A stretch of DNA of 64,000 nucleotides from Alcanivorax jadensis T9. Lineage in GTDB: Bacteria > Pseudomonadota > Gammaproteobacteria > Pseudomonadales > Alcanivoracaceae. The stretch covers positions 124,001-188,000 of the forward strand of contig NZ_ARXU01000002.1 in the NCBI RefSeq assembly GCF_000756655.1, read 5' to 3'. Below are positions 40,201-58,886 of this stretch, in pieces. Numbering within the stretch: the stretch's first letter is position 1; each line of letters opens with the position of its first letter. The translations under genes and the position numbers were made by a program. The notes under the pieces are model-generated. The model saw only the letters and a program-made list of their open reading frames with translations, was not told the DNA's origin and ran no database searches.

Positions 40201-40225
40201 TGTTCCTGCCAGACAGCCACAAAAA

Positions 40226-40249
40226 AACCGGGAGCCTCGGCCCCCGGTT
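40226..40249 (-). terminator. Intrinsic terminator ending the giant-protein block
   Basis: On the minus strand AACCGGG (40249-40243) pairs with CCCGGTT (40232-40226), followed by a T-run (40225-40221). It lies 91 nt after the last gene of the block and just before DUF2065. Confidence 0.85.
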
Positions 40250-40340
40250 GCAGCATTCTACCACGGTCGCCCGGCGGCAGATAGGTTCCGGGCGCCCCAT
40301 CATCGACTGGCTGACAGAGGGCCTGGAACGGGCCTTCGGG

Positions 40341-43300
40341 CTAGTCCTGGCTAACCCTTACGTCATAGCTGACAGCCCCCTGCCCGCCGGGTTGCAGCTC
40401 GCCGGTAAACTGCCATTGCAGGCCACCCTGATAGCCACTGCCATTGCTGCCATCCGGGGCAGACAGGGCACAGGCGCTGAGCGCTGCCGGCAATGCAGCA
40501 GGGCAAGTCGCCGCCGCATTGAGGGCGCTGTAGGCCGGGGTGCTGTCTGTGACGATAACCTCGGTCAGAGGATTGCTTCCCTGATTACGGAATATCAGCC
40601 GGTAGCGCAACACATCCCCCGGCGCCGCCTGGTTGGCTGTGGTGTCGGTCGCGTCCACATCATCGCCGGTGTTGGCGATGCCATCCGGACCAATATTGCG
40701 CACCTGCTTTTCCAGCTGTAGCTGGCCGGCAGCCAGCCGGGTCGTATCCGTCACCTGCGCAGTGGCCTGGAACGCGGTACCGGTATAGGTCTGGGTAGCG
40801 GAAAGCGGGCGGCTGTGGAGCGCCTCCACCGGTGCATCCGCAGGTGCAAACACTTTGGCCAGCAGGCACAGCCGGTCACCCGCCGTCACATTGACACCGA
40901 CGAGAGGCAAGGAGGCATCCGCGCCGTCCAGCTCGCCGTTACAATTGTCATCACGATACAGCGCATCGTTCCAGGCGGGTGCCGCCGGGCTGGTGGTGGG
41001 GGCTTCCAGTACAAAGTCCACATTGCCGGCACTACGGGCGGTAAAGCGGTGGCTATAGAAACGGCTGCCGCCCGGCGCTACCACGCCCTGCTGATCCGGC
41101 TCCAGTATCGGCAGGCCGGCATCACCAAACAGGATGCCATCCCAGACAGTGCCGGTGGCAGGCACCGTCAGGCTCATCACATCGTCATTGGCGGCACCGC
41201 TATTGATACCGGCACCGGCGCTGCCGCTATTCTCGGAGACCGACAGCAAACCATTTGGAGTAGCCACCACCAGACAGGCGCTCTTGCCCACATCCGCCAG
41301 AGCCGCTACCAGCTGCCAGGCACCATCCCCATCCGTGGTGGCTTCCGCCAGCACCGGGTCGCTGGCAGAACATTGCCCATTATTGTCCACGTCGTGGTAC
41401 AGGGTTACCGGCACATTCGCCAACCCCGGCTCATCCGGCCCTTTCTGGCCATCGTGGGCCATTGCCCCAACGCCGTTGTCTTCAAATACCCAGCCGGACA
41501 ATGGCCCGGCGGTAGCCGCCGGGGCCACCGTCACCTTGTAGTCCTCCACTTCACCGCCCATGACCAGCAAGCCACCCGCAGGCACGTCCGGGGCATTGGC
41601 GAAACGGAAGCGGGCATAGGTATCGCCTACAAAGGCTCCCGGAGGGACAAACACATTCAGCCGGATCTCACCCGCCGCCGGGTTGGTATCTTCCGGGCCA
41701 TTATCCCGCACGTTCAGTGCCACCTGCTCACCAGCATCATTCAGATCGCTGTCCCGGTTCCAGTCGATCCAGCCTTGCAGGTAACCCTGCCCCGCTGAGG
41801 TCTCGGTAACGATAATGTCCAGAGTCGCATTACTACCCGGCACTAATGAGGAGAAGACAACCCCCTCTTCTTCCGCACCGTCCGCATCGGCGTTGGCTGA
41901 ATTCTGGTCCGCCTCTTCCGGGCCTGGCGGAATCACGCCCAGATATGGTTCAGGAGCAGCCAGGGTTGCCAGAGAAATATTATTGATATCGGTATCCGCT
42001 GTCGGCTTGCCGCCGCCCTGAGCTACCCGAGAGGCGAAATGGCCACCACTTTCCGGATAGCCACCAGCAATATCACCGTGATCTTTCTGAATAAACACGC
42101 CGAACGCCAATGCCTGACCGCCACCGGTATTGATGGTATGCCGGGTGGTCATAACGCCCTGGGTCATTGCCAGGAAGCTGCCCACGCCATTGCCAGGCAA
42201 ACTGGACAACAGCATCCTCTCGCCACCATTTTCAAAACGCATTTGCAGATCGTTGGTCCCCGGGGCGACGGCAAATAGCTCCCATGGACCGCCATTGGTT
42301 TCCGAGATAATGGATTCACCATTATCCGTATCTTCCGCATCAGCGATGATAATCTCAGCGGATATCGGATCACCTTGAAGAAAAACCTCCCAATCGATCC
42401 GGAATGAAGGATTGGTATTGTCAACATTCCCCAACCCGATGGGATTCACCCCTACATAAAGGTCATCAAGGAGATCACCCGTCCAGCTACCCGTCACATA
42501 AGGCTCAATCGGCGACGTGATATCCGACACTGTGGCGCGAATTTCAACGGGACCGTACACCCAGCTTTTCAGGATCACATCCGAGGTCTGGAAAACGCTT
42601 TTCCCCAGACAGTTCCAGTCCAGCCAGTAGATTGCGTCCCGGAAAGGGCCATTGCCACCAGAAGCGATCCCTCCACCGGAAGCGGACGAGCCCGCCTCAC
42701 AGAGGGAAACAGAGCGAGAGGTAATCAAATAGTCCTCAACCTCACCATCCGGTGCACCTTCCGTTGCATCCAGCTCCTGCACGGACGACCAACGGAAGCG
42801 GGCATAGGTGTCACCCTCTACGACGGTGCCACTGGGTGCCGCTGTCACCAGGATAATGCCGTCGCCATCCTCATCCTGGAGGTCAGTGGCGATACGCTCT
42901 TGTGGGTCGTCGAAAACACCGTCGCCATTCCAGTCAACCCAGGCCTGCAGGTAACCATCATCACCGGAAACCGAGACTTCGATGGGAGTCAGATTGGGCA
43001 GCGCTCCAGGAAAGATCACACCATCATCGAAACTGTCAGCGGCAGCATCCTCATCGTCATAGCTCAGGGCATCCGGTGACACCTCATCACCCAGTTGCAG
43101 ATTTGAGCCGAGGATATGTGATGGCTCACCAAAACTGATTGGGGCATCACCATAATCTACCAGCACCTGTGGCGGCGCACTGGTGACACAGATTTTCTGC
43201 AAGTTTGAAGAGCCACCCGTGGATGCGGTGAATCCAAAATATACGTTGGGATCACCGGAAAAAACCGTGTTAACAAAGTCCACATTCACCGTGGACGTCA

Positions 43301-45158
43301 GATTGCCATCAAAAAAATACTGCAGCTGATCACTAGCCGGATCCCAGTTCAACTGAACGGTATGCCAGTTACCGTCCTCTATATTCCCAAGATCTTCCAC
43401 GGAACTATAAAGACTGGCAGCACCACCACCGGATGAATTCGCATAATTTTCGGGGTTATAAATAGCAGTATGATCGTTAGCAATATCGCCGTAACCGCTG
43501 CCGTTATCATAGGTATCAAACTCAACGGCAACAGCAGGATTGAGCCCGCCCACGCCCAACGCGCCACCAAACACACCCGTAGCACTATTCCCCGCAGGAT
43601 CATTCTGAAACGCAAACGCTATACCATCAGCCCCTGCAGCATTCTTGGTACCCAGATAGACGGAAAACTCAACAGTAAACGCTGAAAGCAAACTGATGCG
43701 TTCATTAGACCACGCCGAGCCCGCCTGATTGCCCAAATCTTGCGTTAACGTGATTTCCCCCGTGCCATTATCCCTGGTTGCAGAGCCACTTAACTGCATG
43801 CTCGTAGACACAGGAAGATCACAGAACAGAGAGCTCAACGTTATCGCGTAATCTTCTACCTCACCATCATCTGGGCTGTTACCAACCCCTGGATCCGGCG
43901 ATTGTGTGAACTTGAACCTGGCATAACTGTTTCCATCCGAAATAGCCGACGGAACCGATACCGGAATAGCCGTTTCCGTAACAAAGTTACTGGAGCCTGC
44001 ACCGCTGACCGTCTCACCATTATTTTCAATATAAACATTGCTTACTGCCCGCTCCCCGGGATCGGAGAAGTCACCATCACGATTCCAGTCGAACCAGGCA
44101 TTTAAATAACCACTTCCGTAAGTGGAAACGTCAATATCAACATCTTCATCAGGCACAAAAACCCGACCATCCAGAACATTGCCAGCAACGGAAATGCCAT
44201 CTTCATCATCAAAATTGACAACCGCCCCACCAGCACCATCAGTGTCATCACCCCGCGCATCAGCGCTTTGTTGCTGCGCACCATCGCTGTCTGGCACCAG
44301 GCCTCTGCCAAGCCCTAACCGGCTGGAAATTGATTGGCGCGATGATGGATACGCAGCCGAGGTATCACCATAATCCGTATTGCTTTCGATAAGATCCTCA
44401 AAATCATCGACCCTGAAGGAAATAAAGTACCCTCTATACGACCCCAGACCTGAATTGTTGCCATAGGCGTTATCGTTTTGAATACGAATGTCGGCTGTTG
44501 ATGTTCCTACAAAAACCACACTGGCGCGGCATTCCGGGTCGACCGAATTGCTATCATCCGTACAGTTACCAGAAGTTCTTCCTTGAATGCGAGTATTGTA
44601 GTTGCCGCCAAAATACGAGCCGGAAAGAACAGATGTCTGCGAATTTTCTGATACGTAGGATTGAGTAGCAGGACCGGTATTGAAGTACAGGTCATCTGTG
44701 GAAGTGCCTGAAGATGAATCCAGATCGAACCCGGTGACGATCAAGCGATCAACTTCTACAGGGGTTGAGGTTCCTGCCCGCACCAGTGTTAAGCGCATAT
44801 CTACATGGGCCGCATTGTCTGCAAAATCCTGATCGTTGATATACACTTCCAGGACTTGATTGCCGACACCGACGCAACTTGGTCGCCCCCCTCCTGGCGA
44901 ATGCTCATTATCTTCGCTCAAGACGTCGACAAGCAGATCCAGGGGCTGCCCTTCATACGTGGTATTGGTACCAAACCGGTAGCTGGCCACTCCACAATCC
45001 TGGCCAGATGTAACACTTCTCGTTCCACTCAGAGGAACACTGACGCCCCATGCCTGTTGACTTAAAAAAAACGATATCAACAGGACAAAAAACACCCCGC
45101 ACGGCATACCCGCTAAAAAAGGATTGTTGTAAGAAGGGTTTCTGTGAGCCATTTTCAT
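40341..45158 (-). CDS. Giant surface protein with L-type lectin, three GEVED domains, SdrD_B-like and DUF11-like modules
   Basis: A 1605-residue exported protein. After a signal peptide (about residues 1-35, ending SQQAWG), three GEVED-type modules end near residues 433, 808 and 1204 with GEVEDY; each has a DWNRDGDFSDPGE-like calcium-loop motif. An L-type lectin domain lies at ~450-665 (SNERISLLSAFTVEFSVYLG, GADGIAFAFQND, AVAVEFDTYDNG). An SdrD_B-like module lies at ~1215-1310 (LSGWVFEDNGVGAMAHDGQK), and a DUF11-like module at the C-terminus ends LQPGGQGAVSYDVRVSQD. The start at 45158 follows GGGTGGA and overlaps the upstream stop (ATGA). Carbohydrate binding or adhesion is inferred from the lectin fold. 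Last gene of the block. Confidence 0.85.
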   Translation of the reverse strand: MKMAHRNPSYNNPFLAGMPCGVFFVLLISFFLSQQAWGVSVPLSGTRSVTSGQDCGVASYRFGTNTTYEGQPLDLLVDVLSEDNEHSPGGGRPSCVGVGNQVLEVYINDQDFADNAAHVDMRLTLVRAGTSTPVEVDRLIVTGFDLDSSSGTSTDDLYFNTGPATQSYVSENSQTSVLSGSYFGGNYNTRIQGRTSGNCTDDSNSVDPECRASVVFVGTSTADIRIQNDNAYGNNSGLGSYRGYFISFRVDDFEDLIESNTDYGDTSAAYPSSRQSISSRLGLGRGLVPDSDGAQQQSADARGDDTDGAGGAVVNFDDEDGISVAGNVLDGRVFVPDEDVDIDVSTYGSGYLNAWFDWNRDGDFSDPGERAVSNVYIENNGETVSGAGSSNFVTETAIPVSVPSAISDGNSYARFKFTQSPDPGVGNSPDDGEVEDYAITLSSLFCDLPVSTSMQLSGSATRDNGTGEITLTQDLGNQAGSAWSNERISLLSAFTVEFSVYLGTKNAAGADGIAFAFQNDPAGNSATGVFGGALGVGGLNPAVAVEFDTYDNGSGYGDIANDHTAIYNPENYANSSGGGAASLYSSVEDLGNIEDGNWHTVQLNWDPASDQLQYFFDGNLTSTVNVDFVNTVFSGDPNVYFGFTASTGGSSNLQKICVTSAPPQVLVDYGDAPISFGEPSHILGSNLQLGDEVSPDALSYDDEDAAADSFDDGVIFPGALPNLTPIEVSVSGDDGYLQAWVDWNGDGVFDDPQERIATDLQDEDGDGIILVTAAPSGTVVEGDTYARFRWSSVQELDATEGAPDGEVEDYLITSRSVSLCEAGSSASGGGIASGGNGPFRDAIYWLDWNCLGKSVFQTSDVILKSWVYGPVEIRATVSDITSPIEPYVTGSWTGDLLDDLYVGVNPIGLGNVDNTNPSFRIDWEVFLQGDPISAEIIIADAEDTDNGESIISETNGGPWELFAVAPGTNDLQMRFENGGERMLLSSLPGNGVGSFLAMTQGVMTTRHTINTGGGQALAFGVFIQKDHGDIAGGYPESGGHFASRVAQGGGKPTADTDINNISLATLAAPEPYLGVIPPGPEEADQNSANADADGAEEEGVVFSSLVPGSNATLDIIVTETSAGQGYLQGWIDWNRDSDLNDAGEQVALNVRDNGPEDTNPAAGEIRLNVFVPPGAFVGDTYARFRFANAPDVPAGGLLVMGGEVEDYKVTVAPAATAGPLSGWVFEDNGVGAMAHDGQKGPDEPGLANVPVTLYHDVDNNGQCSASDPVLAEATTDGDGAWQLVAALADVGKSACLVVATPNGLLSVSENSGSAGAGINSGAANDDVMSLTVPATGTVWDGILFGDAGLPILEPDQQGVVAPGGSRFYSHRFTARSAGNVDFVLEAPTTSPAAPAWNDALYRDDNCNGELDGADASLPLVGVNVTAGDRLCLLAKVFAPADAPVEALHSRPLSATQTYTGTAFQATAQVTDTTRLAAGQLQLEKQVRNIGPDGIANTGDDVDATDTTANQAAPGDVLRYRLIFRNQGSNPLTEVIVTDSTPAYSALNAAATCPAALPAALSACALSAPDGSNGSGYQGGLQWQFTGELQPGGQGAVSYDVRVSQD

Positions 45159-48022
45159 TCCACCCGTAAGCCGAAAATCAGCATGGCGGCTTCGCCGGGA
45201 CCCAGCAACCCAATCTCGGCAGACACATCGCCAGTGGCTGCATCCGCTGGTTCCACCACGCTGCAAACACCCGCCGGGGCTTCACAGCTGGTTGCTGCTG
45301 CCAACATGCTGGTGAATGGCTGGGTACGATCGTTGATGATGACCTGATACATAGGCTCCGCGCCGGTGTTGGTGGCGGTCAGACGATAAATGACGCACTG
45401 CTCGCCGGGAGTCACTTCGAAGCGAGTGAAGACAAAACAGTTGTCGCCGCTGCATGCGCCAGGGCCATCGGGAATACCATCGCAATCCGCATCCAGGGCT
45501 TGCTCCTTGGTGATGGCCACGTCGGTGTTGTTGGTTGTAGTGGTATCCGTTGCGGAATCGCTAACACTCTGGCTGGCGCCCTCAGCGTTAGCGGTGAGCG
45601 TTTTCACATTGGTGATGCCGAAGGCCACGGAGGCCGGAGCAAACACCTTGGAAAAAATAGCCAGGCTTTCACCCACATCCAGAACGCCATCGGCGCCAGC
45701 CGTCTGCAGTGCCACGCCATCTCCGATTAACGTATCTGTCGGGCCCCAGACACCATCGCCGTTACTGTCTTCATAGAGCACCACGGACCAGCCATCGTCG
45801 GACGCCGCATCCGGGGTGCCCGAAAGCAGCACATTGCTGAGCGGCACATTGCCGGTGTTGGCCAGTTGATGGGTATAGACCACCGAGCTTCCCGGCTCTA
45901 CCTGCCCCACCTGATCCGGGGTCAGGGCCAGGGCGGGGCCAGCCACCACGGCCACCGCATCCAGCTTGATATCGCTGGCGCCGCTGGTCTGCGACAAGGC
46001 ACGGAAATACAGATTTAGGGTATCGCCGCCCTGTGCGTTTGCCGGTGCGGTTACCCGGGCACAGATCCGACGATTGTCGCTGGCAGGGATCAGCCCGGTG
46101 TTGTTAAGCACCGCGCCCAGTGAGCTGCAATCGCCGTTGCCACCGTCGCGATAAAAACTCACCTGCCAACCTGCGGGTAACTGCCCGGGGGCAAAATCCA
46201 TGTCGCTGACCGCCAGGACATAAGAGTCCTGCCGCGCGCCGGTGTTATTAACCACCAGCTGCAGTATGGCCTGTTCCCCCGGGGCCACATTAACTGTCTG
46301 AACCGGCGCCGCCTCCGGGCCCGCTCCTTCACCGGGGGCACCGCCATTCACCGGCACATCATTGGTCAGATCCACGCTGTTGGCGAGAATGCTGAGGAGG
46401 ATATCGCTGACCGCGTTAGTGACCTGAGGGTCGGTGACAGAACGCGCCATCTTGGTGACTTCAAAGGGACCGCCCAGGGCATCCGGAGGCAGGGTGGCCT
46501 GCATTACCACGCGCACCCCACAGGCCAAGTTAATGCTGTCGGTCACGAAGCGGGGCGGACACTGGCCACCGGCATCCGGCAGCGGGATCGGCCCGGTATC
46601 AGCAACACCATTGCCATCGGTATCCACCAATGGCGTACCACCGTCGCTTTTGTACAACTGGAACACGGTACCCGCCGGGAAGGGCGTGGCCAGAGGCGCG
46701 CCAAGTCGATCCTCCGCCGGGTCCACAAGAACATCGAAAGTGTCTTCGCCATCGCCCCGGTTCCAGATCACGTTGCTGAACGATGCCACTCCACCCTGCC
46801 CCAGGCTGGCCAACTCCACCCGGTTACCGGTGTTGCTACTATCATCCTCGCCGGTCAGGCTATCGGATTCGCTGTTGTTGGCCACCACGGCGGGCAGCAG
46901 AGCTCGCTCGATAATCCGGTAATCCACGGTGTTGCTATCAAAGGGCCCAAAGGCATTGCTGCCGTCGCCATTCTGATAATTCAGCGTTGCCAGGTTGCGC
47001 ACCCGGTCGCCGGCGGCCAGCCCTGCATCAATATTGACGTCAAAGGCCAGGGAACCCACCGCTCCCGGTGGCAGCTGGGCAATGACAGCACGAACCCGAT
47101 CATGGCAGTCGCTGTTTGCCGCACCGGTATCGTAGGCACAGTAATCGATCAGGTCCGGGGCACTACCCTGGCTGCCATCGTCACCGTCATCGGTCAGCAC
47201 GGTGGCGCCGCTAACAGTCCAGCGTGCCGAACCCGGCACATAGGTCATTCCCGCATTTACACCGTCCACGGAAATCTGCGGCAGCAGATCCTCGATTTCC
47301 ACCTGGGTGGCAACCTGATCGGACGGATTGCGATAGGCCAGGGTCACCGTAACCGGCCCTGAGGGCGAGCGACCCTGGCGAACACTGAGGGATTTGACCA
47401 CTTCCAGCACCGGCCCCTCGATCAGGTTGATGGTGTCGGTATTGGCTGCCGTCAGGGCGGCATTGCTGTTGCTGGTAGCGGTGACATCCAGCGACAGGGA
47501 CTGCCCGCTAATGGCCACGCCGCTCACCTCGGCTTCGATGACCAGCGCAAAGCTGTCACCGGCCAACAAGTCCGGGGTCGGGGAATCCCAGCAGCCATCG
47601 GGATCAGTATGGGCAAACAGGGGGGCGCCGCTGTCCGGCTGACCATCGCCATTGGCATCCGGGAATACAGACCAGGCAGCGATATCCGCATCGATGCTGT
47701 CCAGACAGAGCTGGTAGCGATCCCGACCATTACCGGTATTGGTCAGGGTGTGGGGGAAATACACCACGCCCCCCGGCAGCGACGGCTTGCTTTGCGCGCT
47801 GACCAGTTCGATGCCGGGCACCGCCTGTATCAGGGTTTCCACCAGGTTGGAGGTGACACGCTGGGTCTCGGCCAACGCAGAACAGCCATCATCCAGACAG
47901 GCCCGGTAACTGGCCGATGCCTGGTTCTTGATGACCGTTCCCGCCGCCGGCGCCGCCGCCTTGACTGCCACGGCAGTCAACAATAGCAACGTTATACCCA
48001 GAGATTTGCGCGTCACATTCAT
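45155..48022 (-). CDS. DUF11-repeat exported protein, paralog of the gene at 54991
   Basis: A 955-residue protein with a signal peptide (MNVTRKSLGITLLLLTAVAV, cleavage near KAA). The mature start AAGTVIKNQASASY resembles its paralog's LTPAGTDINNRATVTY. Several Ig-like DUF11/NEW3-type repeats follow, marked by the recurring T.TNTGN and by DANGDGQPDSG, DTDGNGVADTG and DSNGDGVWGP, which look like calcium-binding loops. The C-terminal module has a cysteine cluster (DADCDGIPDGPGACSGDNC) and ends LLGPGEAAMLIFGLRVE. It starts 4 nt after the OmpA-type gene with GAGG as ribosome-binding site. It is probably a structural surface protein. Confidence 0.85.
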   Translation of the reverse strand: MNVTRKSLGITLLLLTAVAVKAAAPAAGTVIKNQASASYRACLDDGCSALAETQRVTSNLVETLIQAVPGIELVSAQSKPSLPGGVVYFPHTLTNTGNGRDRYQLCLDSIDADIAAWSVFPDANGDGQPDSGAPLFAHTDPDGCWDSPTPDLLAGDSFALVIEAEVSGVAISGQSLSLDVTATSNSNAALTAANTDTINLIEGPVLEVVKSLSVRQGRSPSGPVTVTLAYRNPSDQVATQVEIEDLLPQISVDGVNAGMTYVPGSARWTVSGATVLTDDGDDGSQGSAPDLIDYCAYDTGAANSDCHDRVRAVIAQLPPGAVGSLAFDVNIDAGLAAGDRVRNLATLNYQNGDGSNAFGPFDSNTVDYRIIERALLPAVVANNSESDSLTGEDDSSNTGNRVELASLGQGGVASFSNVIWNRGDGEDTFDVLVDPAEDRLGAPLATPFPAGTVFQLYKSDGGTPLVDTDGNGVADTGPIPLPDAGGQCPPRFVTDSINLACGVRVVMQATLPPDALGGPFEVTKMARSVTDPQVTNAVSDILLSILANSVDLTNDVPVNGGAPGEGAGPEAAPVQTVNVAPGEQAILQLVVNNTGARQDSYVLAVSDMDFAPGQLPAGWQVSFYRDGGNGDCSSLGAVLNNTGLIPASDNRRICARVTAPANAQGGDTLNLYFRALSQTSGASDIKLDAVAVVAGPALALTPDQVGQVEPGSSVVYTHQLANTGNVPLSNVLLSGTPDAASDDGWSVVLYEDSNGDGVWGPTDTLIGDGVALQTAGADGVLDVGESLAIFSKVFAPASVAFGITNVKTLTANAEGASQSVSDSATDTTTTNNTDVAITKEQALDADCDGIPDGPGACSGDNCFVFTRFEVTPGEQCVIYRLTATNTGAEPMYQVIINDRTQPFTSMLAAATSCEAPAGVCSVVEPADAATGDVSAEIGLLGPGEAAMLIFGLRVE

Positions 48023-48026
48023 CCCG

Positions 48027-48611: not shown

Positions 48612-51600
48612 CGCGCGTCTCCCATATAACTGCGCTGGCCGGCAGCCTTGCTTCCCAGCCAGCCCAGATCATCTTCATCAAACTTGTATTCCAGGCCGAT
48701 ATACAGGCCTTCCACGTTATAGCCTTCCGGATCCAGGTCATCATCGCGGAAACCGGAGAAATTGTAGCCAACGCCCATACGCAGATTGCGGCGCACCAGG
48801 GCGTTGACGCCAACGCCAAAGCTGTAGCGGCGTTCGCTGACTCCTTCAGTGGTCAGCGCGCCGCCATGCAGATCCAGATCAAAACGACGAGAAATGTCCC
48901 AGATAATACGGCCATCGGCCACATAGGCATCGGTATCCACATCCAGATTTCCCAGCTCAGTCTGTTGCCACTTGGCGCCAATGCGGCCGGAGAAAATCCA
49001 GTCGTCGTGGGGCTGAAAATTATGGTGGTTGGAGAGGATGTGTACGCGCCGATCACTGGCGGCGTCGCCGCCCCACTGGGTTTTCCATTTGTACATGAAC
49101 AGCATGTGGTGGCGGTTGTCCAGACGCGGGCGGCGAGCCATGCCCAGGGTGACGATATTGTCGCCCTGCTTGGGCTGGCCATCGAAGTATTGCAGCCGCA
49201 GGTCGTCACGTACCACGGCAGACCAGTCCAGATTGACGCGCCAGATGTTGGCAGCACTGAAGCCGTAGTAGGTGCGCTCATCGCCGAAGCGGGTTTCCAC
49301 CCGGCCCAGAGTGCGGCGATTAGGGTTACGTTTGTCTTCTGCCGCCAGCGACAGGGCAGTGGAATCCTGACTGGCATTACCCTCCAGGGTTTCAATCCAT
49401 TCCGCCGACGGGCTGAAAGTCAGGCCCGGTTCGATTTCGAAGTGCGAACGTACCCCGTTGGCTGCCGCCACATCACGACCATCCTGGGCACCGCGCAGGC
49501 GGTACTCGGAAAATACATCGGTGCTGCGGCTGAGCGCGGAACGGACGCCAAAGGTGAACTGGCGGGTCTCCACCTCGTTGTTCAGCAGATTGACACCACT
49601 GAGACTGTTGATCAGCTCATAGCGGCTGTAGAGGCTGGTCTTGTCAGTAATACCCAGGTCCGCATCGGCGGCAATACGGCGTCGATCACGGTCATTGAAG
49701 GCCTGCTCGTATTCCGAGCCCACGGTCAACGGCTTGCCGAACAGGCGCGTCCCCTGGCTGGCACCCAGAACCCAGGTTGCGAAGCGGTCTTCCCCTTGGT
49801 CATCTTTCTGCTCGATGCCCCGGGCCCCGGCACGTAACTGGGTGGCACCGATCTGTTTCTTGCCGATCAGACCCAGGCTACTTTGCGCGTCGTCGTTTTC
49901 CAGGGACTGGGAATGCACGGCTTCCACCTGGGCGGACAGACTGCGCGACAGCACCTGCTCGTGATCCAGACGCATTTCTTCCCGGGATTCAGCAATGCCC
50001 GCCGCCGGATTACGGAAACCCTCTTCCGCCCGGGCCCAGCGAAGATCGGTGCTGGAGCCATCCTGCCAGCGCCATTGGCTGCCCAGGCTGATCGCCCCCC
50101 CTTCGCTATCGTCATCATTGTTTTCCATGGTGGCTGACGACGCATAAATACTGTTCTGATCGGTGAGGGCGTACTCCGCAGCCACGCTACTCAGGTCGAA
50201 GCCTTCGCTTTCATGCTCGTCGCGGGTGCGGCTGGCGCTGACAGTCAGCTTGTCATTGAGTTGGTAGCGGAAGCGGGCGCCGAGCACGTTGTATTCCTCG
50301 GCATCAGAGGCTTCCACGTTATAGCTGGCACGGATGAATACCGGATTCAGGTTTTCATCCACGGTGGGAATGACGTCATGAAAACGGATATCGCCAGTGA
50401 AGTAATTCACCGAGTAATCCACGTAACGGGTCAGTGGCTGAGTGGAAATCACCAGCCCCGGATTGCCGCGATCGCGGACAATCAGCTCCAGGGTTTCGCT
50501 GTCGCGAGCCGGACGATTGGCCAGGGTGAACAGCAAGGCGGTACCGTTACCGGGAATTTCCTCGCTGACTTGTTCGTATTCCGGCCGGGCGCCGAACACC
50601 TGGAAGCGGGCTCGATCATTTTCATAAATGGCGTTCAGACCGGTGAGGGTGCGTTGCACCCGACCAAGATCCTGGAAGTCGTAATTGGGGTCGGTCAGGT
50701 AGTCGCCCCACAACAGACTGCTGCGATCTTTTTCCAGCTTGGCGTAGAGTTTGCTGCGGCTGCGGGCATCATAACCGCGCACCGAGGCATCGCCGGCGAT
50801 GGGATAGGAGTCTGACGGATTCAGGTCGCGGCGAATTTCTTCATCATCGTCCAAATCATTATCCGTATCGTAGGCGAGCGTCAGGTGAGCACCACCGCGC
50901 ACCGCCCCTTTGAGGAAGACGGCACCGTTAGCATCCAGACCTTCTTCAGGCAGTGAATCGCCGATGTCGGTAGGCGCATTGCCGTTATCACGCAGATTTG
51001 CACCAAAGCCCTGACGCAATTGCACATAGCCGGTGGCGACCAGAGGCCGCATGGGCGCTACCTGCTCGACTCGCGCCGTGGCGACAAAGTCTTCTACCAG
51101 GGCTCGTAGCCGGATCGGCCCGGTGTATTCGGTGCTGCGCAGGTGAATCATCCCTTCACCGTCGCTGACCCGTATCTGGTGGCCAGGGTTGTCCGGTTGC
51201 AGATCCTCTTCCAGCCAATCGCCCCTGTCATGTTCCAGAGTGACAAAATAGGTGCCCCGCGCCGGGTTACCACGGGCATCGAGCATTCGCACCCTGATCG
51301 CCAGCGTGGAACGACCGCCATCCGCCGCCAGGGTATCTTCTGCCGGTTCCAGTTCCAGGCTGCGCGGCGCTTCCGGGCGCAGGATCTTGGTACTGGCAAG
51401 CACCCGTTCGTTACCGAAGGGGTCCAGGGCTTTTACTTCAACCTGATTGTCACCCTCATCCAGTGATACACCATACCAGCTCAGCACCTGGACCTTTTCA
51501 CGACGGTTCAGCACTTGCTCACCCAATTGGCTGCGCGGCACCTTCTTGCCTTTCACGTACAGCTCCGGCTCCACACCGGCGCGCACTACCACCTGCAAAC

Positions 51601-54600
51601 GACCATCCCGACTGATACCGTCCTGCGGCCATAACCAGGTACCGGCGACGCCCTGCTCGCGCGTCACTTTTGCTGCCATGTCCTTGGTCTCGCCCATCTG
51701 GGCGTCGGCCACCGGATCCATGTTTCTCTCCAGGCCGGTAGCCGGCTGGCTGCGGCTGACCTGATCCCAGACTTCCGCCAGGTTGGCATCGCCGGTTTGG
51801 GTGTAAACACCACTGCCCAGATCGCCGCCGCCATCGGCCTGGCGCAGACGGTTATTCACGTTGTTCTGGCGCAGTGGATCGAAGCGGGCCGCCTCATCCA
51901 GCATCCAGTCACCGGAGAGTGACGCATTACGGGCTTTCAGATTTTCGACGATGGCGTCACGCTGGTCCGCAGGCGGGCACATGGCGGCGAAGTCTGCACG
52001 GTGGTATTCCCCCGGGCGCAGATCCAGGAAGCGGCTTTGTGGATCTGCAGCATGGCGATTATCAATGGGCTTGAGTTTCAGCCCTTCAGGCAACGTTAGC
52101 GGATCCACCTTGATGGTATGCAGTCCCGGGCGCAGGCCATAGAGGCTGTATTGCCCGTTTTCATCGGTGATCACCCAGGAGCCGTCAGACAAATACAGCT
52201 TCACCCCGCCCACCGGGTATTCGCCGTCGTTCTGCAGATTGTTACAGTCGTTATCCACGTAGACCTTGCCAAACACCATGGCCCGGTCCGAGAGTACGCC
52301 TTCGCTACGCACCTGGACTTTCGCTTCGCCCTGATTGGAGAAGTAAGTGAACCCGGAAGCGTTGTTGGCCTGAGCCGTGGCACGGTTGATGCCGTCACTA
52401 TCCACGGCGCCGGCTGACAGGCGCAGGCCGTAATGCAGGGTCACCGTGCTGCCTGGCTGCAATGGCAACGGCTGAGGCCCGCTGGCGGTCTGTTGCTGGA
52501 CCAGGAAGGTCAGTTGATTGCCGCCGTTGTTGGCAGGCGCGGGAATCTCGATGCGCTGATCGTTGATTTCCAGCCAGGCACTGTCCTCGATATAACGGAA
52601 CCCATAAGGAAGGCGATCAACGATGCGGGCCGCGAACAACTCACCGTCATGGTTGCTGGTGATATCAATACGGTAGGCCAGCACATCACCCACACCCGCC
52701 CGCTCCGCTTCTACCTGTTTGTCCAGCACCAGTACCCCGGCGGCTGTCGCAGCGGACGGGTCCAGGGGAATATCCACAAACACATCAGCCAGCCCAAGCA
52801 GAAACGCGCCCTGGTTATCCACGCTGGCCATTCGTGCCGCTGCCCGACCCACCGGTGCTGCAGCCGGGTCATAGCCGCCGAGACCGTAGGAACTTTCCGA
52901 GATATTGGCAAAAAAGGTTTTTGCTGCATCCGGTGAAACAGTGGAAGGAAAGGTGTAGCCCGGGGGGGGCACCACGTCCAGATAATAACAGTGCCCCGGC
53001 GTCGCCAGCGGGAACTGATAACGCCCTGGCTGCTGAGTATTATCCGCGGCAGTGGTGTTGGTGTTTTCCCTGGGCAGAATCTCGCCAGTAAAAGGATGCA
53101 GCCCACGCTCGTAGGCATTTTCCGGCAAGGCGGCACAGCTGGCGGCACCGGTATCAACCAAGGGCTGGCGAGACTGAAACAGCGTCACCACCGCATCCGG
53201 CAAAGGACGACCATTACTGGAATCGTACACCGTTCCTGCCGGATCTACTGCCGCCAGAGCCGTGACAGTCTGCACATTCACCACGCTGCCATCCGGACCG
53301 AAGGTCGGCACGGTGAAGGTGGCGGTGATGCGATCTTCCGGCCCCGTCTGCAGCACACAGCCAAGGCCCAACACTTCGTTCAGGGTTGTGCTGCCGGAAT
53401 ATTGCACCAGATTGTTTGCATTGGCCGTTGCCGGGCACAGACCACCGCCCCCGGAGCGCGTCTCGTTGAGAGAGAACGGGTACACACTGCGGAATACCCC
53501 GGTGTTAACCCCGGTCTCCTTGACCGCCATGAGCAAGGTATCACCCGTCAATCGGGAGGTTAGCGAGACTTGCAGCAGCCGCGCCCCACCCGGGGTGGTC
53601 TGCACAAAGTCCTGATCGGCCAATACCTGGTTCAGTTGGGAAGCCGTGAGCCGCAGGTAGACCCCGTCCAGCAGAATGCGTTGGCTTTGTTCCGGCAACA
53701 GGGGATAAATGGCGGCATCGACAAAATCGCTGTCTTCACTATGGACAGGCGCACGGTTCTGCTGGAAGACCGCATTCGAAGGGCGCTGGAAAGTAATACC
53801 CGGTGACAGGGTGGCCGCAATGCGATGGCAGACCCGGTTACTTTGCACATCGGCCAGGCCGTCGCCCTGCAGATCCACAAAGGCGCGGTTGAATAGCATG
53901 GTGCCCTGGGTCAGCCCGCTGTTGATCTGCACCTGGAAGGCAAAGCCACCACTCTGGTTATTGCGAATCTGATACGCCGGAATCAACAGCCCCAGACGAT
54001 CTACCGTGCCGCTGCCATCCCAGTCGTCATAACGCTGCCAGACATCTTGCCCATCACCGGCAAAGTGCACCAGAGCTTGTGCCTGAAGTGGCGCGATATT
54101 GTTGATCGCCGCAGGCATCAGGCTGACGTTACCCGGCAGGGAGTCTTCGATCAGTACGCCCTGCTCCTGTTGCCCGGAAACCTGCAGCATTCTTTCTACC
54201 GGCGCGGTGTTACCCACATTGGTGACCGACACCTGATAATCCAGTATCGCGCCTTCTGGCTGCGGCAGATCACAGCTCTGACTGGAAGACTTGCTGAGTA
54301 CCAGAGCGGCGCCATCGCCAATCACAATCCGATCCAATGCCGTATCGATCAGAGTGCTATCCAGCTGCGACTGACCCTGCAATGACAAGCGGATTTCATC
54401 GCCGGTCTGCAAGAATGCCGGCACCGTGCCACTGATAACCAGGTTGACAGTCTGTCCCGCCGGCAAGGAGGTAATCTCCGTGATAGCCGGCTCGCCAGGA
54501 TCGGCGATCCCGTTGCCATTGATGTCGCGGTAGACCCTCAGCACCTGCAGATCGCCCGCATCGCCACCCAGGTTAGCCAGGGTCAGAGTGTAGCTGTCGG

Positions 54601-54883
54601 TCACATTACCGGTATTGGTGAGCGTATGTTCGATGCTGACGGACTGGCCCGCCGAGGCCTGACGAGTCTTGCCCTGGTCCACCTCAAAGGCGGGGCTTTC
54701 TCCAACCATGACCCGGGAAATATTGGAGCGCACCACAACAACCTGCTCTGTCAGCGGATCGAAATAGCGCATTTCTGCCTGGTTCAACAAGGCTGTGCCT
54801 GGCGCCGTGGCAGCATGTAGCAGCACGCTGGTCAAGACCAGCATGCTGACAACAGCAATGCGAAGGGCGGCAAGCAATTTCAT
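48608..54883 (-). CDS. Giant outer-membrane protein: exported repeat region with C-terminal beta-barrel
   Basis: A 2091-residue protein. A signal peptide (about residues 1-30) is followed by DUF11-like modules (~40-330 and ~710-830), an SdrD_B-like domain at ~865-930 (VFGKVYVDNDCNNLQNDGEY), and an invasin-like Ig domain at ~1165-1260 (DGGRSTLAIRVRMLDARGNP). From about 1275 to 2060 come alternating-polarity strands ending VEGLYIGLEYKF, typical of a large outer-membrane beta-barrel. The start at 54883 (MKLLAALRIAVV) was chosen as the first codon of the signal peptide; its ribosome-binding site is weak. It lies between two DUF11 proteins and overlaps an OmpA lipoprotein, so it may secrete or anchor its neighbours. 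Confidence 0.82.
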   Translation of the reverse strand: MKLLAALRIAVVSMLVLTSVLLHAATAPGTALLNQAEMRYFDPLTEQVVVVRSNISRVMVGESPAFEVDQGKTRQASAGQSVSIEHTLTNTGNVTDSYTLTLANLGGDAGDLQVLRVYRDINGNGIADPGEPAITEITSLPAGQTVNLVISGTVPAFLQTGDEIRLSLQGQSQLDSTLIDTALDRIVIGDGAALVLSKSSSQSCDLPQPEGAILDYQVSVTNVGNTAPVERMLQVSGQQEQGVLIEDSLPGNVSLMPAAINNIAPLQAQALVHFAGDGQDVWQRYDDWDGSGTVDRLGLLIPAYQIRNNQSGGFAFQVQINSGLTQGTMLFNRAFVDLQGDGLADVQSNRVCHRIAATLSPGITFQRPSNAVFQQNRAPVHSEDSDFVDAAIYPLLPEQSQRILLDGVYLRLTASQLNQVLADQDFVQTTPGGARLLQVSLTSRLTGDTLLMAVKETGVNTGVFRSVYPFSLNETRSGGGGLCPATANANNLVQYSGSTTLNEVLGLGCVLQTGPEDRITATFTVPTFGPDGSVVNVQTVTALAAVDPAGTVYDSSNGRPLPDAVVTLFQSRQPLVDTGAASCAALPENAYERGLHPFTGEILPRENTNTTAADNTQQPGRYQFPLATPGHCYYLDVVPPPGYTFPSTVSPDAAKTFFANISESSYGLGGYDPAAAPVGRAAARMASVDNQGAFLLGLADVFVDIPLDPSAATAAGVLVLDKQVEAERAGVGDVLAYRIDITSNHDGELFAARIVDRLPYGFRYIEDSAWLEINDQRIEIPAPANNGGNQLTFLVQQQTASGPQPLPLQPGSTVTLHYGLRLSAGAVDSDGINRATAQANNASGFTYFSNQGEAKVQVRSEGVLSDRAMVFGKVYVDNDCNNLQNDGEYPVGGVKLYLSDGSWVITDENGQYSLYGLRPGLHTIKVDPLTLPEGLKLKPIDNRHAADPQSRFLDLRPGEYHRADFAAMCPPADQRDAIVENLKARNASLSGDWMLDEAARFDPLRQNNVNNRLRQADGGGDLGSGVYTQTGDANLAEVWDQVSRSQPATGLERNMDPVADAQMGETKDMAAKVTREQGVAGTWLWPQDGISRDGRLQVVVRAGVEPELYVKGKKVPRSQLGEQVLNRREKVQVLSWYGVSLDEGDNQVEVKALDPFGNERVLASTKILRPEAPRSLELEPAEDTLAADGGRSTLAIRVRMLDARGNPARGTYFVTLEHDRGDWLEEDLQPDNPGHQIRVSDGEGMIHLRSTEYTGPIRLRALVEDFVATARVEQVAPMRPLVATGYVQLRQGFGANLRDNGNAPTDIGDSLPEEGLDANGAVFLKGAVRGGAHLTLAYDTDNDLDDDEEIRRDLNPSDSYPIAGDASVRGYDARSRSKLYAKLEKDRSSLLWGDYLTDPNYDFQDLGRVQRTLTGLNAIYENDRARFQVFGARPEYEQVSEEIPGNGTALLFTLANRPARDSETLELIVRDRGNPGLVISTQPLTRYVDYSVNYFTGDIRFHDVIPTVDENLNPVFIRASYNVEASDAEEYNVLGARFRYQLNDKLTVSASRTRDEHESEGFDLSSVAAEYALTDQNSIYASSATMENNDDDSEGGAISLGSQWRWQDGSSTDLRWARAEEGFRNPAAGIAESREEMRLDHEQVLSRSLSAQVEAVHSQSLENDDAQSSLGLIGKKQIGATQLRAGARGIEQKDDQGEDRFATWVLGASQGTRLFGKPLTVGSEYEQAFNDRDRRRIAADADLGITDKTSLYSRYELINSLSGVNLLNNEVETRQFTFGVRSALSRSTDVFSEYRLRGAQDGRDVAAANGVRSHFEIEPGLTFSPSAEWIETLEGNASQDSTALSLAAEDKRNPNRRTLGRVETRFGDERTYYGFSAANIWRVNLDWSAVVRDDLRLQYFDGQPKQGDNIVTLGMARRPRLDNRHHMLFMYKWKTQWGGDAASDRRVHILSNHHNFQPHDDWIFSGRIGAKWQQTELGNLDVDTDAYVADGRIIWDISRRFDLDLHGGALTTEGVSERRYSFGVGVNALVRRNLRMGVGYNFSGFRDDDLDPEGYNVEGLYIGLEYKFDEDDLGWLGSKAAGQRSYMGDAR

Positions 54884-54946
54884 TAAGCGTTCAGTACCCG
54901 TTGTTATTTGCCTCAGGGGCTTTTCCAGACCCGGCGCACCGGCCCT

Positions 54947-54974
54947 GGAAAAGCCCTCCCCCGAAGGGGAGGGC
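54947..54974 (-). terminator. UUCG-loop terminator or attenuator inside the giant-protein operon
   Basis: On the minus strand GCCCTCCCC (54974-54966) pairs with GGGGAGGGC (54961-54953) around a TTCG tetraloop, followed by TTTTCC. It lies 17 nt after the DUF11 gene at 54991 and 64 nt before the barrel gene. Partial termination would make the upstream DUF11 protein in excess over the barrel. Confidence 0.85.
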
Positions 54975-54990
54975 AATGCCTGGGGGAGCG

Positions 54991-57936
54991 TTAGTTCACT
55001 TCGACACAGAACTGGGTACGGGCACTGTCGCCCGACACCAGCTGGCCAATTTCCCACTCCACCACCGGCAGAGTGCCGGTATTGGCTGTGGTGGCGCTGT
55101 CAGAAGCGCGCACCGCGTCGTCCGCCGCCTGGAAGGTGGTGAACTCGGTGGTCTCATCAGTGATCACCACATTTTCTGCAGTGGTTGCCCCTTCGTTGGT
55201 GGCGGTCAGCTGCCACACAACACACTGGCCGGGTTCAACCTGGGTGGATTGCACGGGCTCAAAGCCACCAGCAGGCCAGGTACCACCCGCACAATCACAC
55301 GCCGCATCAACGGCTGCCTGTTTGTCCAAACGCACCTGACCCACCACCACTTCCGTGGTGTCGGTGGCGGTATCGGACACATTGGCGTTACTGGCGGTCA
55401 GGGTGTAGCTGTCCACGGTACCGGCAGGCGCATTGGACGGCGCGAATACGGTGACGCGAACATCCAGACGCTGACCCGGCTCCAGGGTGACCAGAGGATT
55501 GGCACCTGCGTTATTGATATCCACGAGGATGGTGTTGCCATTGGGCGTGCGCACTGCCACATCATTGGCGGTGGGCAGGTTATCCAACTGCACCCAGGCA
55601 TCCGGGGTACCGTTACCGGTGGTATCGATAAACAGCTGGGTGTTGTTGTTCCAGCCATCTGCAGCCAGGGAGTTGGCCGCGGTGATCTCTACCGCTTCGG
55701 AGGTGTTGCCGCCGTTGGCAATCACATGGGTGTAGTCCACGTTCCCGCCGGGCTGTACCTGGTTGGCACCATCCGGAGACACGGTGATATTACGGTTGGC
55801 AATCACATCCACCGCATCCAGTTTCTGGTCGGTGATCGTGCCGTCAGAGGAAGACACCACAGTGAAGCGAATCGGATAATCGCCATCGCTATCGTTGGTA
55901 TTCACAGTACCTGCGCCAGTGAAATCTGCTGCTGCCTGAGCCACATTGGATGACACCTGCACGTCAGCCTGGTACTGGTACACCGCGCCTGCAGGCAGGC
56001 TGGGGGTTGCGGTTACCACATTACCGGCATTACTGGTGTTATCGGCAGTACCATCAGCATCGGTATCCACACCGACCTCACGGAAGGTCACCGCCCAGCC
56101 AGCAGGCAGGTCCGCACCCAGGGTGAAGGATTGGGCATTACCTGAGTTGTTGGCCACGAACAGCGGGAAGGTAGCAATGCCGCCAACAGCGACTTCCGTA
56201 GTCGTGGTCGGGGCTGCCGCATTAAAGGCATCCGCATCGATAACCGCGTCAGTCAGATCTGCAGAATGACTGTTGGCCAAATCCACAGCCGGCGCCACGA
56301 TTTCAGTCAGCACTTCCAGCTTGTCATCACTGACGCTGTTGTCACCAAAGGAAGTGGCCACCATGGTTGCCACGAACGGGCCAGTGCCACTAACACCTGC
56401 CGGCAGCTGAGCACGCACGGTAATGCGGCGATCGGCGCCCGCTGCAATGGAGCCGGTATCCGGTACGCCATTGCCGTTGGTGTCAGTCAGCTGGGTATTG
56501 TTGGTTGCGTTCCAGAAGGTGAACAGCGTCCCTGCCGGGTAGGACTGTGCGCCGGCCGGAACCGTGCCAGCACCTGCGTAACCGGCGCCCGCATCGTTAC
56601 CGATACTGAGATCAAACACATCACTGCCGTTACCGTTGTTGGCAACGATATTGGCAAACGCCACCACGGCGCCAGAGTTTGCTTCATCCTGCAAAGCGAT
56701 ATCGTTCAGCGTGGCATCGGCATCGGCCGCATCGCCAGTGTCCGTTGCATCCACCGCATAAACCTGCTGGATGGTAGTGGTGGTGGTGTTGGAGGTAGAC
56801 GGATCATCCGGGATGTTATCGCCATCCAGATCCCCTTCTGCCGCAAAGGTGTTGCGGATCTGGGTGCCAGAGGCCAGGGTGCCGTCAAAGTCGACCTTAT
56901 AGACAACGGTCACGGTGGTGTTAACGCCCATGATGGCATCACGGAAGTTGATACCTTTGAGGGTTTCACCCGTGGTGCCGTTACCATCCAGGTCCACTCC
57001 CGCCGGCTCAGTCACATCGGCCAGGTCAGCAATACCCGCATAGGAATGCGGCAGCGCCTGCAAAGCACCGGTGCTGTCCAGCCACTGGTCACCACTGGAG
57101 GTGAGCAAACCGTTTACAGAAACGATTTCCGCAAAGGTGGCGTTGGCAGGAATCGGATCGAAGATATCCACGTCTTGCGCAGCTCGACCACCATTGTTCT
57201 TCACTTCCAGGGTGTAGGTAATGGTGTTGTCGTTAAAGTTCGGCACCGCGGTCTTGCTCAGCTGCAGTACCGCATCGGTGGTCACCGTCACCACATTGTT
57301 GTTGGTGTCGTTACCGTCCGGGGTACTATCACCGTCAGCGTCATAGGTAGCGGCATCGCCGTTTGCACCGATATCCTCAACGGTGCCTGCACCACCACCG
57401 ACAGATTCCACCAGCAGGGTGGACTCGATGGTATCGCCGGCACCGGCACCCGCCGGCACAGGTACGGCAACGATCAGCTCAGCCTGCTGGCCGGCATTCA
57501 GATTGACCGTGTTCACCGCAGCCTCACCAGCATCCGGTACGCCATTGCCGTTGGCATCCAGGTACACGGTGTAGGTGGACGCGCCAGTGGCAGCATCCAG
57601 CCCGGCCAGGCCGTCAACGCTGAAGGAATCATCGGCGTTACCGGTGTTGGTCAGCGTATGGGTGAAGTAGACAGTTTCACCGGGCGCACCGGACTTGCTG
57701 CCGTCATTCTCCAGGGTGGCCGCATACACTTCGGCCACGGTTACCGTGGATTCATTGGACTGTGCCGAATAGCTGTTGCCATTGGCGTCCTCGTAGGTCA
57801 CTGTCGCCCGGTTGTTAATGTCGGTCCCGGCAGGCGTCAGAGCCAGTGTTTGCCCGGCGGCAAGCACCAACCCCAACCCCATCGCTGAGGCGGACACACG
57901 CGCAGACAACAGGCCCTTTTGAAAGGCAAGTTTCAT
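54991..57936 (-). CDS. DUF11-repeat exported protein, paralog of the gene at 45155
   Basis: A 981-residue acidic protein with a signal peptide (about residues 1-33, ending TLA). DUF11/Ig-like repeats carry the phrases TLTNTGNADDSF and LEVKNNGGRAAQDVDIFDPI, and DANGNGVPDAGE, DTNGNGVPDTG loops that resemble calcium sites. The C-terminal part has a cysteine group (AACDCAGGTWPAGG ... PGQCVVW) and ends WEIGQLVSGDSARTQFCVEV. AAAGGAAAC precedes the ATG. The same overall plan, length and start as the 955-residue protein indicate duplication. The following terminator suggests high expression, so it may be the major surface subunit. Confidence 0.85.
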   Translation of the reverse strand: MKLAFQKGLLSARVSASAMGLGLVLAAGQTLALTPAGTDINNRATVTYEDANGNSYSAQSNESTVTVAEVYAATLENDGSKSGAPGETVYFTHTLTNTGNADDSFSVDGLAGLDAATGASTYTVYLDANGNGVPDAGEAAVNTVNLNAGQQAELIVAVPVPAGAGAGDTIESTLLVESVGGGAGTVEDIGANGDAATYDADGDSTPDGNDTNNNVVTVTTDAVLQLSKTAVPNFNDNTITYTLEVKNNGGRAAQDVDIFDPIPANATFAEIVSVNGLLTSSGDQWLDSTGALQALPHSYAGIADLADVTEPAGVDLDGNGTTGETLKGINFRDAIMGVNTTVTVVYKVDFDGTLASGTQIRNTFAAEGDLDGDNIPDDPSTSNTTTTTIQQVYAVDATDTGDAADADATLNDIALQDEANSGAVVAFANIVANNGNGSDVFDLSIGNDAGAGYAGAGTVPAGAQSYPAGTLFTFWNATNNTQLTDTNGNGVPDTGSIAAGADRRITVRAQLPAGVSGTGPFVATMVATSFGDNSVSDDKLEVLTEIVAPAVDLANSHSADLTDAVIDADAFNAAAPTTTTEVAVGGIATFPLFVANNSGNAQSFTLGADLPAGWAVTFREVGVDTDADGTADNTSNAGNVVTATPSLPAGAVYQYQADVQVSSNVAQAAADFTGAGTVNTNDSDGDYPIRFTVVSSSDGTITDQKLDAVDVIANRNITVSPDGANQVQPGGNVDYTHVIANGGNTSEAVEITAANSLAADGWNNNTQLFIDTTGNGTPDAWVQLDNLPTANDVAVRTPNGNTILVDINNAGANPLVTLEPGQRLDVRVTVFAPSNAPAGTVDSYTLTASNANVSDTATDTTEVVVGQVRLDKQAAVDAACDCAGGTWPAGGFEPVQSTQVEPGQCVVWQLTATNEGATTAENVVITDETTEFTTFQAADDAVRASDSATTANTGTLPVVEWEIGQLVSGDSARTQFCVEVN

Positions 57937-58097
57937 GGCTGTTTCCTTTAATTGGAGTTTAAGTTCGGACTACTTCTGATCTGAAAGCCTTGCCAGAGCG
58001 ACCCTCCACACATGGTGTGAGCCACTCCCCCAGTGCGACACAAGTCGCTCGCACAAGACTTCCCGGGCCCGGGAGGGCCCTGATCATGTTCCCCCGG

Positions 58098-58568
58098 TTA
58101 TTGCACCTTTACCCGGTACCGGTATTCCAGTACCTGGCCCGGCTGGATTCCGTTTTCCGGAACCCAGCGCAGCTGGGTGTAATCACTGGGAGCAACAATG
58201 ATGTTCTTTGACTGGCCGTCAGGACCGGTCGTTGTTCTGGTTACAGGCTCAAGCTCAAAGCTGCTGCCATCGTCAATGCTGACAGTGAATTCAGCATTCA
58301 CATCCGCAGAGGCGGAGTCTTTGAGGTAGGCGGTATTGGCGGGAATTGGCCCGGTGATTTCCAGGCCGGAAAGCGGCTGTTCCGCTTCGTTGGTATAGAC
58401 CAGTCGATATTCGATCACATCACCCGGAGAGGCTTCTTGCGTAGCAATCATCTCTTCCTGGCCATTTTTTTCAGTGACCAGATAGGTGTCCATCTTGCTG
58501 GACAGTGGGCCATCCGCCCACAGAGTGGTTGTCCAGAACAGCAAAGCCCCAAGAATAATGCGGTTCAT
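58098..58568 (-). CDS. Small exported DUF11-like protein, first gene of the giant-protein block
   Basis: A 156-residue protein with a signal peptide (MNRIILGALLFWTTTLWADG) and one DUF11-like beta-sandwich: SPGDVIEYRLVYTNEAEQPL, LEITGPIPANTAYLKDSA, and the ending WVPENGIQPGQVLEYRYRVK. It is essentially a free-standing copy of the module that ends the three large proteins. AGGGGAT precedes the ATG. The 161-bp gap after it (57937-58097) contains a GC-rich palindrome (CTTCCCGGGCCCGGGAG) but no coding sequence. It may be a cap, chaperone or minor subunit; this is inference. Confidence 0.82.
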   Translation of the reverse strand: MNRIILGALLFWTTTLWADGPLSSKMDTYLVTEKNGQEEMIATQEASPGDVIEYRLVYTNEAEQPLSGLEITGPIPANTAYLKDSASADVNAEFTVSIDDGSSFELEPVTRTTTGPDGQSKNIIVAPSDYTQLRWVPENGIQPGQVLEYRYRVKVQ

Positions 58569-58881: not shown

Positions 58882-58886
58882 CAGGG

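Follow-up and report, generated by a model that had tools for sequence, protein, structure and literature searches.

The DUF11 domain has lately been renamed CLIPPER, and crystallography reveals within it a Lys-Asn bond that joins the first and penultimate strands of the fold, with an Asp as the presumed catalyst (PMC12617251). As described there, the CLIPPER fibrillar adhesin B9T28_05395 of Acinetobacter silvestris (PDB 9ifr) combines a CshA_NR2-like and GEVED-like adhesive part, a CLIPPER stalk with the Lys-Asp-Asn isopeptide and an OmpA-like anchor in one polypeptide, whose domains are complete and intramolecular. The grappling hooks GhpA (Aureispira) and GhlA (Litorilinea) are likewise DUF11-rich surface filaments, formed by giant single chains of ~6000 amino acids (aa), and the accessible part of their description reports no split domain (PMC13319060). 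In chaperone-usher pili (FimD/FimH), a lectin tip has an acceptor and no donor, the outer membrane holds a large barrel, and the N-terminal donor of each next subunit fills the previous acceptor (in part from PMC9715654). The same paper describes the archaeal thread filament Saci_0406, which shows head-to-tail donor-strand complementation and intersubunit isopeptide links and has a one-ended partner protein proposed as a cap. In sortase-assembled pili (BcpA etc.), a sortase joins the subunits. In SpyTag/SpyCatcher, an engineered pair of CnaB type, an isopeptide domain in two parts re-forms its bond. Here we analyzed a window (the whole stretch of 64,000 nucleotides, positions 124001-188000 of contig NZ_ARXU01000002.1, C2) of the 3.6-Mb genome of Alcanivorax jadensis T9, and describe a six-gene operon that, on the evidence of its sequence, rather probably encodes a linear surface fibre built through a split DUF11 (CLIPPER) domain.

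The six genes, P6-P5-P4-P3-P2-P1 in the order of transcription, encode exported proteins of 156, 981, 2091, 194, 955 and 1605 aa, respectively, once starts are trimmed. All lie on the minus strand inside the hflC–DUF2065–hisZ gap, where a 63-aa open reading frame (ORF) at 40009-40200, between the block and hisZ, is DUF2065-like (a name taken over from the initial annotation). That annotation had proposed six same-strand genes of these sizes, the last four overlapping or nearly touching, in a block that parts hflC from DUF2065, and each of these points was borne out: P4/P3 and P2/P1 overlap by 4 bp, and P3 and P2 are spaced by 4 bp. The spacing is 107 bp between P5 and P4 and 161 bp between P6 and P5.

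Domains were called with Pfam on the six proteins, with matches considered up to E 1. DUF11 (PF01345; curated cut-off, 24.6 bits) was above its cut-off in P2 (25.3 bits) and P5 (49.8 bits) and below it in P1, P4 and P6; SdrD_B was above its cut-off in P4, P3 contained an OmpA domain, and P1 contained L-type lectin, GEVED and CshA_NR2 domains. The C-terminal DUF11 matches of P1, P2, P5 and P6 stop at model position 48 to 84 of 114, where the protein ends. These C-termini, hereafter acceptors, correspond to a DUF11 domain whose final two strands are missing. The missing part is a two-strand hairpin, roughly aGTxIxNxAxxxY...SNxVxxxV, and a similar segment, hereafter the donor, directly follows the signal peptide at the mature N-termini of P2, P5 and P4. 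Both ends are found in P2 and P5, only the acceptor in P1 and P6, and only the donor in P4. The features, in window coordinates and as detected by Pfam, profile hidden Markov models (HMMs), alignment or AlphaFold2, are as follows.

58098..58568, minus strand: P6, 156 aa, signal peptide (by eye) and one acceptor-type DUF11 half domain (~58101-58514; Pfam, alignment)
58350-58352, minus strand: Gly of P6 at the aligned Asp position (alignment)
54991..57936, minus strand: P5, 981 aa, predicted stalk subunit, donor at the N-terminus and acceptor at the C-terminus (Pfam, HMM)
57703..57840, minus strand: P5 donor hairpin (HMM), triad Asn42 at 57811-57813
54994..55341, minus strand: P5 C-terminal acceptor, Lys872 at 55321-55323 and Asp927 at 55156-55158
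48608..54883, minus strand: P4, 2091 aa, donor-only putative base with C-terminal giant barrel (Pfam, HMM, AlphaFold2); the ORF reaches 55057, and the start at 54883 was picked from the signal peptide and homologues
54674..54811, minus strand: P4 donor hairpin (HMM), triad Asn34 at 54782-54784
51041..51643, minus strand: P4 immunoglobulin (Ig)-like pre-barrel segment, from residue 1081 (AlphaFold2, structure/profile matches)
48611..51040, minus strand: P4 predicted barrel, from residue 1282 (AlphaFold2, structural matches)
48027..48611, minus strand: P3, 194 aa, OmpA-domain lipoprotein (Pfam; lipobox by eye)
45155..48022, minus strand: P2, 955 aa, predicted stalk subunit, donor at the N-terminus and acceptor at the C-terminus (Pfam, HMM)
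47813..47953, minus strand: P2 donor hairpin (HMM), triad Asn33 at 47924-47926
45158..45523, minus strand: P2 C-terminal acceptor, Lys839 at 45506-45508 and Asp898 at 45329-45331
40341..45158, minus strand: P1, 1605 aa, acceptor-only putative tip (Pfam, HMM); the ORF reaches 45266
43839..44108, minus strand: P1 best GEVED match (Pfam)
43179..43811, minus strand: P1 L-type lectin domain (Pfam)
42093..42638, minus strand: P1 CshA_NR2 domain (Pfam)
40344..41501, minus strand: P1 conserved C-module (comparison with relatives)
40344..40727, minus strand: P1 C-terminal acceptor, Lys1484 at 40707-40709 and Asp1538 at 40545-40547

We compared the window with loci from a genome scan, in which the best 80 of 255 encoding stretches were retained, giving 79 loci. 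For a non-circular test, a hairpin profile was built from internal complete domains only; its N-terminal matches comprised 24 without a preceding acceptor (one in an ORF cut by a contig edge) and 1 with an acceptor, and 77 of its internal matches stood behind an acceptor while 16 did not. An iterated donor profile matched 122 of 840 N-termini, against none of 840 shuffled and none of 840 reversed ones, and a C-terminal acceptor profile matched 165 of 840, against 0 shuffled. As a strand control, every ORF of 110 aa or longer in the 79 loci (2209 in total) was examined: donors occurred on 128 of 990 plus-strand ORFs versus 0 of 1219 minus-strand ORFs, and acceptors on 173 of the former versus 1 of the latter. 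When donors of the window were attached to the P1, P5 and P6 acceptors (four joins), the Pfam DUF11 match grew from position 50, 84 and 69 to 97-113 of 114, with gains of +2.9 to +6.6 bits, in Pfam trials that covered these joins and the isolated hairpins. With our own model, built from 57 internal domains, all 12 joins gained +13 to +22 bits and reached position 139-141 of 149, compared with 103-105 unjoined; random window segments joined instead gained +0.6 to +2.8 bits on average. A side feature of the P2 donor is a Cys...Cys loop (CLDDGC) between its strands, which the P4 and P5 donors lack.

The split also divides the isopeptide triad. In the internal domains, Asp is invariant and Lys and Asn nearly so (24 aligned sequences), all three residues being in one chain, and the internal-domain profile aligns them with the Lys, Asp and Asn of 9ifr (printed alignment, as read). 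In the terminal half domains, Lys and Asp are on the acceptor and Asn is on the donor, and therefore the joints are probably sealed by spontaneous intersubunit Lys-Asn bonds, as in a natural tag/catcher pair. All 46 tips and 75 of 78 subunits have the acceptor Lys (121/124), 121 of 124 subunits and tips the acceptor Asp, and 123 of 131 donors the Asn; the subunits of L121 and L124 have another residue at Lys and have lost Asp too. Among short P6-type proteins, 13 of 53 have the Asp, all 13 together with Lys (Fisher p 9e-25, overstated since the sequences are related). Four of these are cut by a contig edge (L149, L151, L156 and L157), and the nine uncut ones come from loci with an OmpA-barrel fusion. 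In the window's own P6, Gly stands at the Asp position and Leu in the aligned Lys column, and P6 therefore probably covers donors without bonding. The division of DUF11 between successive subunits, the split Lys-Asp-Asn triad and the nature of P6 as an acceptor-only half domain all go beyond the initial annotation.

The hairpin might instead complete the acceptor without a bond, or close on its own protein, so that the proteins would be single fibrillar adhesins or chains held non-covalently. In favour of this, bond-free donor-strand systems are widespread, self-complementation is described for TasA monomers (PMC9715654), the bond at this locus is a prediction from sequence, and most P6-type proteins have an acceptor but no Asp. 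We nevertheless regard such an arrangement as unlikely, because the triad is conserved in subunits and tips, and donor-only barrels and acceptor-only tips need partners in other proteins.

We further examined how donors and acceptors are distributed across the 79 loci. Both ends were found on 76 ORFs, a donor only on 10, and an acceptor only on 45 ORFs longer than 260 aa and 52 ORFs of 260 aa or less; the labels subunit, tip and short derive from these donor/acceptor tags themselves, and the facts independent of the tags are the donors on barrels, the strand control and the acceptor-only last gene of the six-gene loci. Among 76 barrel ORFs, 42 had a donor and none an acceptor. In each of the 14 loci that show the six-gene order (L102-L115), the last gene carried an acceptor without a donor. 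Eleven of the 79 loci (L102-L110, L124 and L161) are not independent of other loci sampled. A short protein, a subunit and a barrel occurred together in 45 loci, 33 of which also contained a tip-type ORF (a few of these, e.g., in L158 and L173, could instead be subunits whose donor went undetected), and the full grammar was not seen in every locus. Within the window's operon, three donors (P2, P5 and P4) match three acceptors (P1, P2 and P5), which leaves P6 over. Given one donor and one acceptor per joint, a chain P1-P2/P5-P4 would use up every donor and acceptor, and P6, outside the finished chain, is best read as a transient partner. Among relatives, the N-terminal part of the tip is exchanged while a C-module of the P1 type is conserved. 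From this comparison, the P5 identity values of L105 and L110 (29 and 30) were set aside, as they refer to a different ORF. Separately, L179 has two consecutive acceptor-only ORFs (714 and 861 aa) behind one barrel, perhaps alternative tips.

The initial annotation had seen in these genes a surface-layer (S-layer), fibre or adhesion system. Its fibre or adhesion part, with an anchor or exporter, a cell-wall tether, bulk subunits and a lectin tip, is retained on the basis of the conserved gene order, the barrel prediction, the OmpA-barrel fusions and the tip swapping. The S-layer part is not, as the donor/acceptor bookkeeping gives a chain with two defined ends; an S-layer-like lattice is in our view very improbable, since head-to-tail joints with a one-ended tip and base predict a chain and the N-part of the tip is exchanged.

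Whether the 2091-aa protein is predicted as a barrel had been set as a refutation test, and the outcome did not speak against it: AlphaFold2 made the C-terminal region of P4 very strand-rich, and it matched barrels. Foldseek gave a weak global match to SprA complexes of type IX secretion (template modelling score, TM, 0.13); the absence of a family among the structural matches listed was given no weight. When the barrel profile was compared with solved structures, the pre-barrel part alone matched, to beta-galactosidase and invasin chains. The internal-domain profile reached 9ifr and GhpA (9flp, E 1.9e-20), the P2/P5 profile had no relative among solved structures at E 0.01, and two single-sequence searches for solved relatives returned nothing useful. 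In 20 of the 79 loci, OmpA domain and barrel form one fused protein, and in 23 the OmpA domain is encoded by a separate gene; in 19 loci the domain sits between the N-part and the barrel, which places that segment in the periplasm.

Two other explanations were weighed. P4 could resemble an autotransporter and expose its own N-terminal portion, the remaining proteins being independent adhesins, as the order of N-terminal Ig-like domains before a C-terminal barrel would allow. This is quite improbable given the donor hairpin of P4, the periplasmic position of the segment in those 19 loci, the conserved gene order, and the lack of any autotransporter beta-domain match in P4 (Pfam up to E 1). The OmpA domain beside or inside the barrel protein would suit a chain that stays periplasmic and tethers the outer membrane to the cell wall. 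We consider that extremely unlikely, as the lectin, GEVED and CshA_NR2 domains of P1 and its exchanged N-part suit a role at the surface.

From the computed split, donor/acceptor bookkeeping, conserved triad, strand-rich barrel prediction, OmpA-barrel fusions and tip swapping, we infer docking, bond formation, export via the barrel, the role of P6 and adhesion. In the fibre model, the proteins would reach the periplasm by Sec, where P6 may cover donor hairpins, probably without bonding, as a reverse chaperone or cap. P1, with its lectin, GEVED and CshA domains, would go first as the tip, and its open C-terminal domain would receive the hairpin of the next subunit, upon which Lys and Asn would join. 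P2 and P5 would form the stalk, their relative order and copy number being left free, until the last subunit receives the P4 hairpin and the chain becomes fixed to the barrel. The P4 barrel would anchor the chain and probably pass it across the outer membrane, and P3 would tie the base to peptidoglycan. Such a logic would be that of chaperone-usher pili executed with other parts.

Several observations weigh against this model. By HMM, 34 of the 76 barrel ORFs lack a donor; among 33 listed donor-less ones, 13 begin at a contig edge, several have what by eye is a weaker hairpin, and those of L142 and L149 stand behind a donor-only ORF. Pfam does not match the donor hairpins on their own, and between 0 and 8 of 300 random joins reach the score of the true joins, from a pool that may include true internal hairpins. 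In the P2/P5 alignment, 5 of 19 invariant columns lie inside the hairpin, but its members were partly picked by donor match, which biases this conservation, and the triad counts were taken over related sequences. Since nine uncut P6-type proteins keep both Lys and Asp, P6 may bond in those loci. Pfam showed no usher, chaperone or sortase domain in the six proteins, and assembly is accordingly a proposed one; the case is computational throughout, and the AlphaFold2 model of P2 is neutral as to docking.

The comparison with described systems then reads as follows. Unlike in B9T28_05395, the tip, stalk, base and OmpA domain are separate proteins brought together via split domains, and a giant barrel is present. 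Unlike chaperone-usher pili, the operon has a hairpin as donor, a probably covalent joint, subunits of ~1000 aa, P6 as an acceptor instead of a donor chaperone, and a barrel protein that itself carries the donor; no usher, PapD-like chaperone or fimbrial subunit family was found in the six proteins (Pfam up to E 1). The Saci_0406 thread differs, according to PMC9715654, in having no outer membrane or barrel, a bond between an N-terminal Asp and an Asn located two subunits further on, and a proposed cap with a donor and no acceptor. In contrast to sortase-assembled pili, the six proteins contain no sortase family (Pfam; the search covered those proteins and not the rest of the genome). Compared with SpyTag/SpyCatcher, the pair is natural and of CnaA type. 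The initial annotation knew of no named system with this composition, and full-text searches of the open-access PMC literature (subscription papers and preprints being outside it), judged mostly by titles and abstract openings, likewise yielded no description of such a system or of a split DUF11. We lean toward a class of outer-membrane fibre that has not been described before and occurs in several bacterial groups. In it, an isopeptide domain split during evolution would act as a natural tag/catcher: the N-terminal hairpin of each subunit would complete and covalently lock the C-terminus of the preceding one, the giant barrel itself would be the base, with a donor and no acceptor, and the reverse chaperone would be an acceptor-only half domain that mostly lacks the catalytic Asp. 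If true, this would add a further route to adhesive fibres in Gram-negative bacteria, with subunits and a barrel that fit no known pilus family in the searches made. It would also mean that tag/catcher chemistry has a precedent in nature, would supply many candidate pairs, and would assign a concrete role to DUF11 proteins whose ends resembled ordinary Ig repeats. Alcanivorax degrades oil, and its operon is a candidate for surface attachment.

The same six genes in the same order were found in 12 relatives (nine of the same genus, two of another genus and one of another family). The initial annotation had named two outcomes that would speak against a system, genes that do not co-occur elsewhere and genes scattered in close relatives; the genes do co-occur, and relatives keep them together. 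In the nine same-genus carriers (G001, G004, G006, G007, G010, G012, G013, G014 and G016), the block lies beside hisZ, with hflC on the opposite flank in eight; in G012, the contig ends before it. The genes lie at other sites in G019 and G030 (another genus) and G099 (another family). With the window's genome counted, the block was present in 10 of the 17 genus genomes compared. It is not fixed at the site: the remaining seven (G002, G003, G005, G008, G009, G011 and G015) have an empty site, with hflC, the DUF2065-like ORF and hisZ and nothing else of note between. The P2/P5 profile detected two full-length proteins in each of the 13 operon genomes (342 to 1159 bits); of the seven empty-site genomes, G015 gave no match and the other six partial matches of at most 53 bits. 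In L093 (G018, another genus of the family), a 582-aa ORF, with no BLAST relation to the fibre system, lies between hisZ and hflC, which suggests that the gap may take other inserts.

More widely, the barrel family was detected in 52 of 369 sampled genomes of the window's class and 41 of 272 genera (E 1e-10), and the 79 loci include cultured Psychrobacter, Sphaerotilus, Lysobacter, Geomonas, Leucothrix and Desulfatibacillum. A second locus type (L048, L052, L053 and L153-L180) combines one or two DUF11 subunits of ~330-530 aa with a short protein of acceptor-only type and a barrel protein of 1650-2290 aa, which often has an OmpA domain inside it. In a third type, seen in Alcanivorax genomes (L068, L069, L070, L098, L099 and L100), a barrel protein of 1730-1817 aa immediately follows a giant ORF that has DUF11 repeats and ends in an SdrD-like part; the L068 barrel protein has two OmpA stretches.

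Around the block, two terminator-like hairpins were located.

58832..58879, minus strand: terminator-like hairpin in the interval between hflC and the block (consensus match)
40226..40249, minus strand: terminator-like hairpin 3' of P1 (1 found versus 0.2 expected)

Terminator consensus matches numbered 6 sites in the region versus 0.9 expected, three of them being the 58832-58879 hairpin. No convincing promoter was found for the block, the lone sigma-70-like match lying inside P6 at chance level (1 found, 1.1 expected). An RNA regulator at the block was considered and rejected, as an Rfam scan of 39900-59200 gave no family reaching the gathering threshold. A second DUF11 fibre in the window's genome was rejected as well, because the sole other DUF11 match (contig C6) belongs to a bacterial alpha-2-macroglobulin. 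In that protein (L067:9022-14670), the DUF11 match lies at the protein end and overlaps a bMG10 match.

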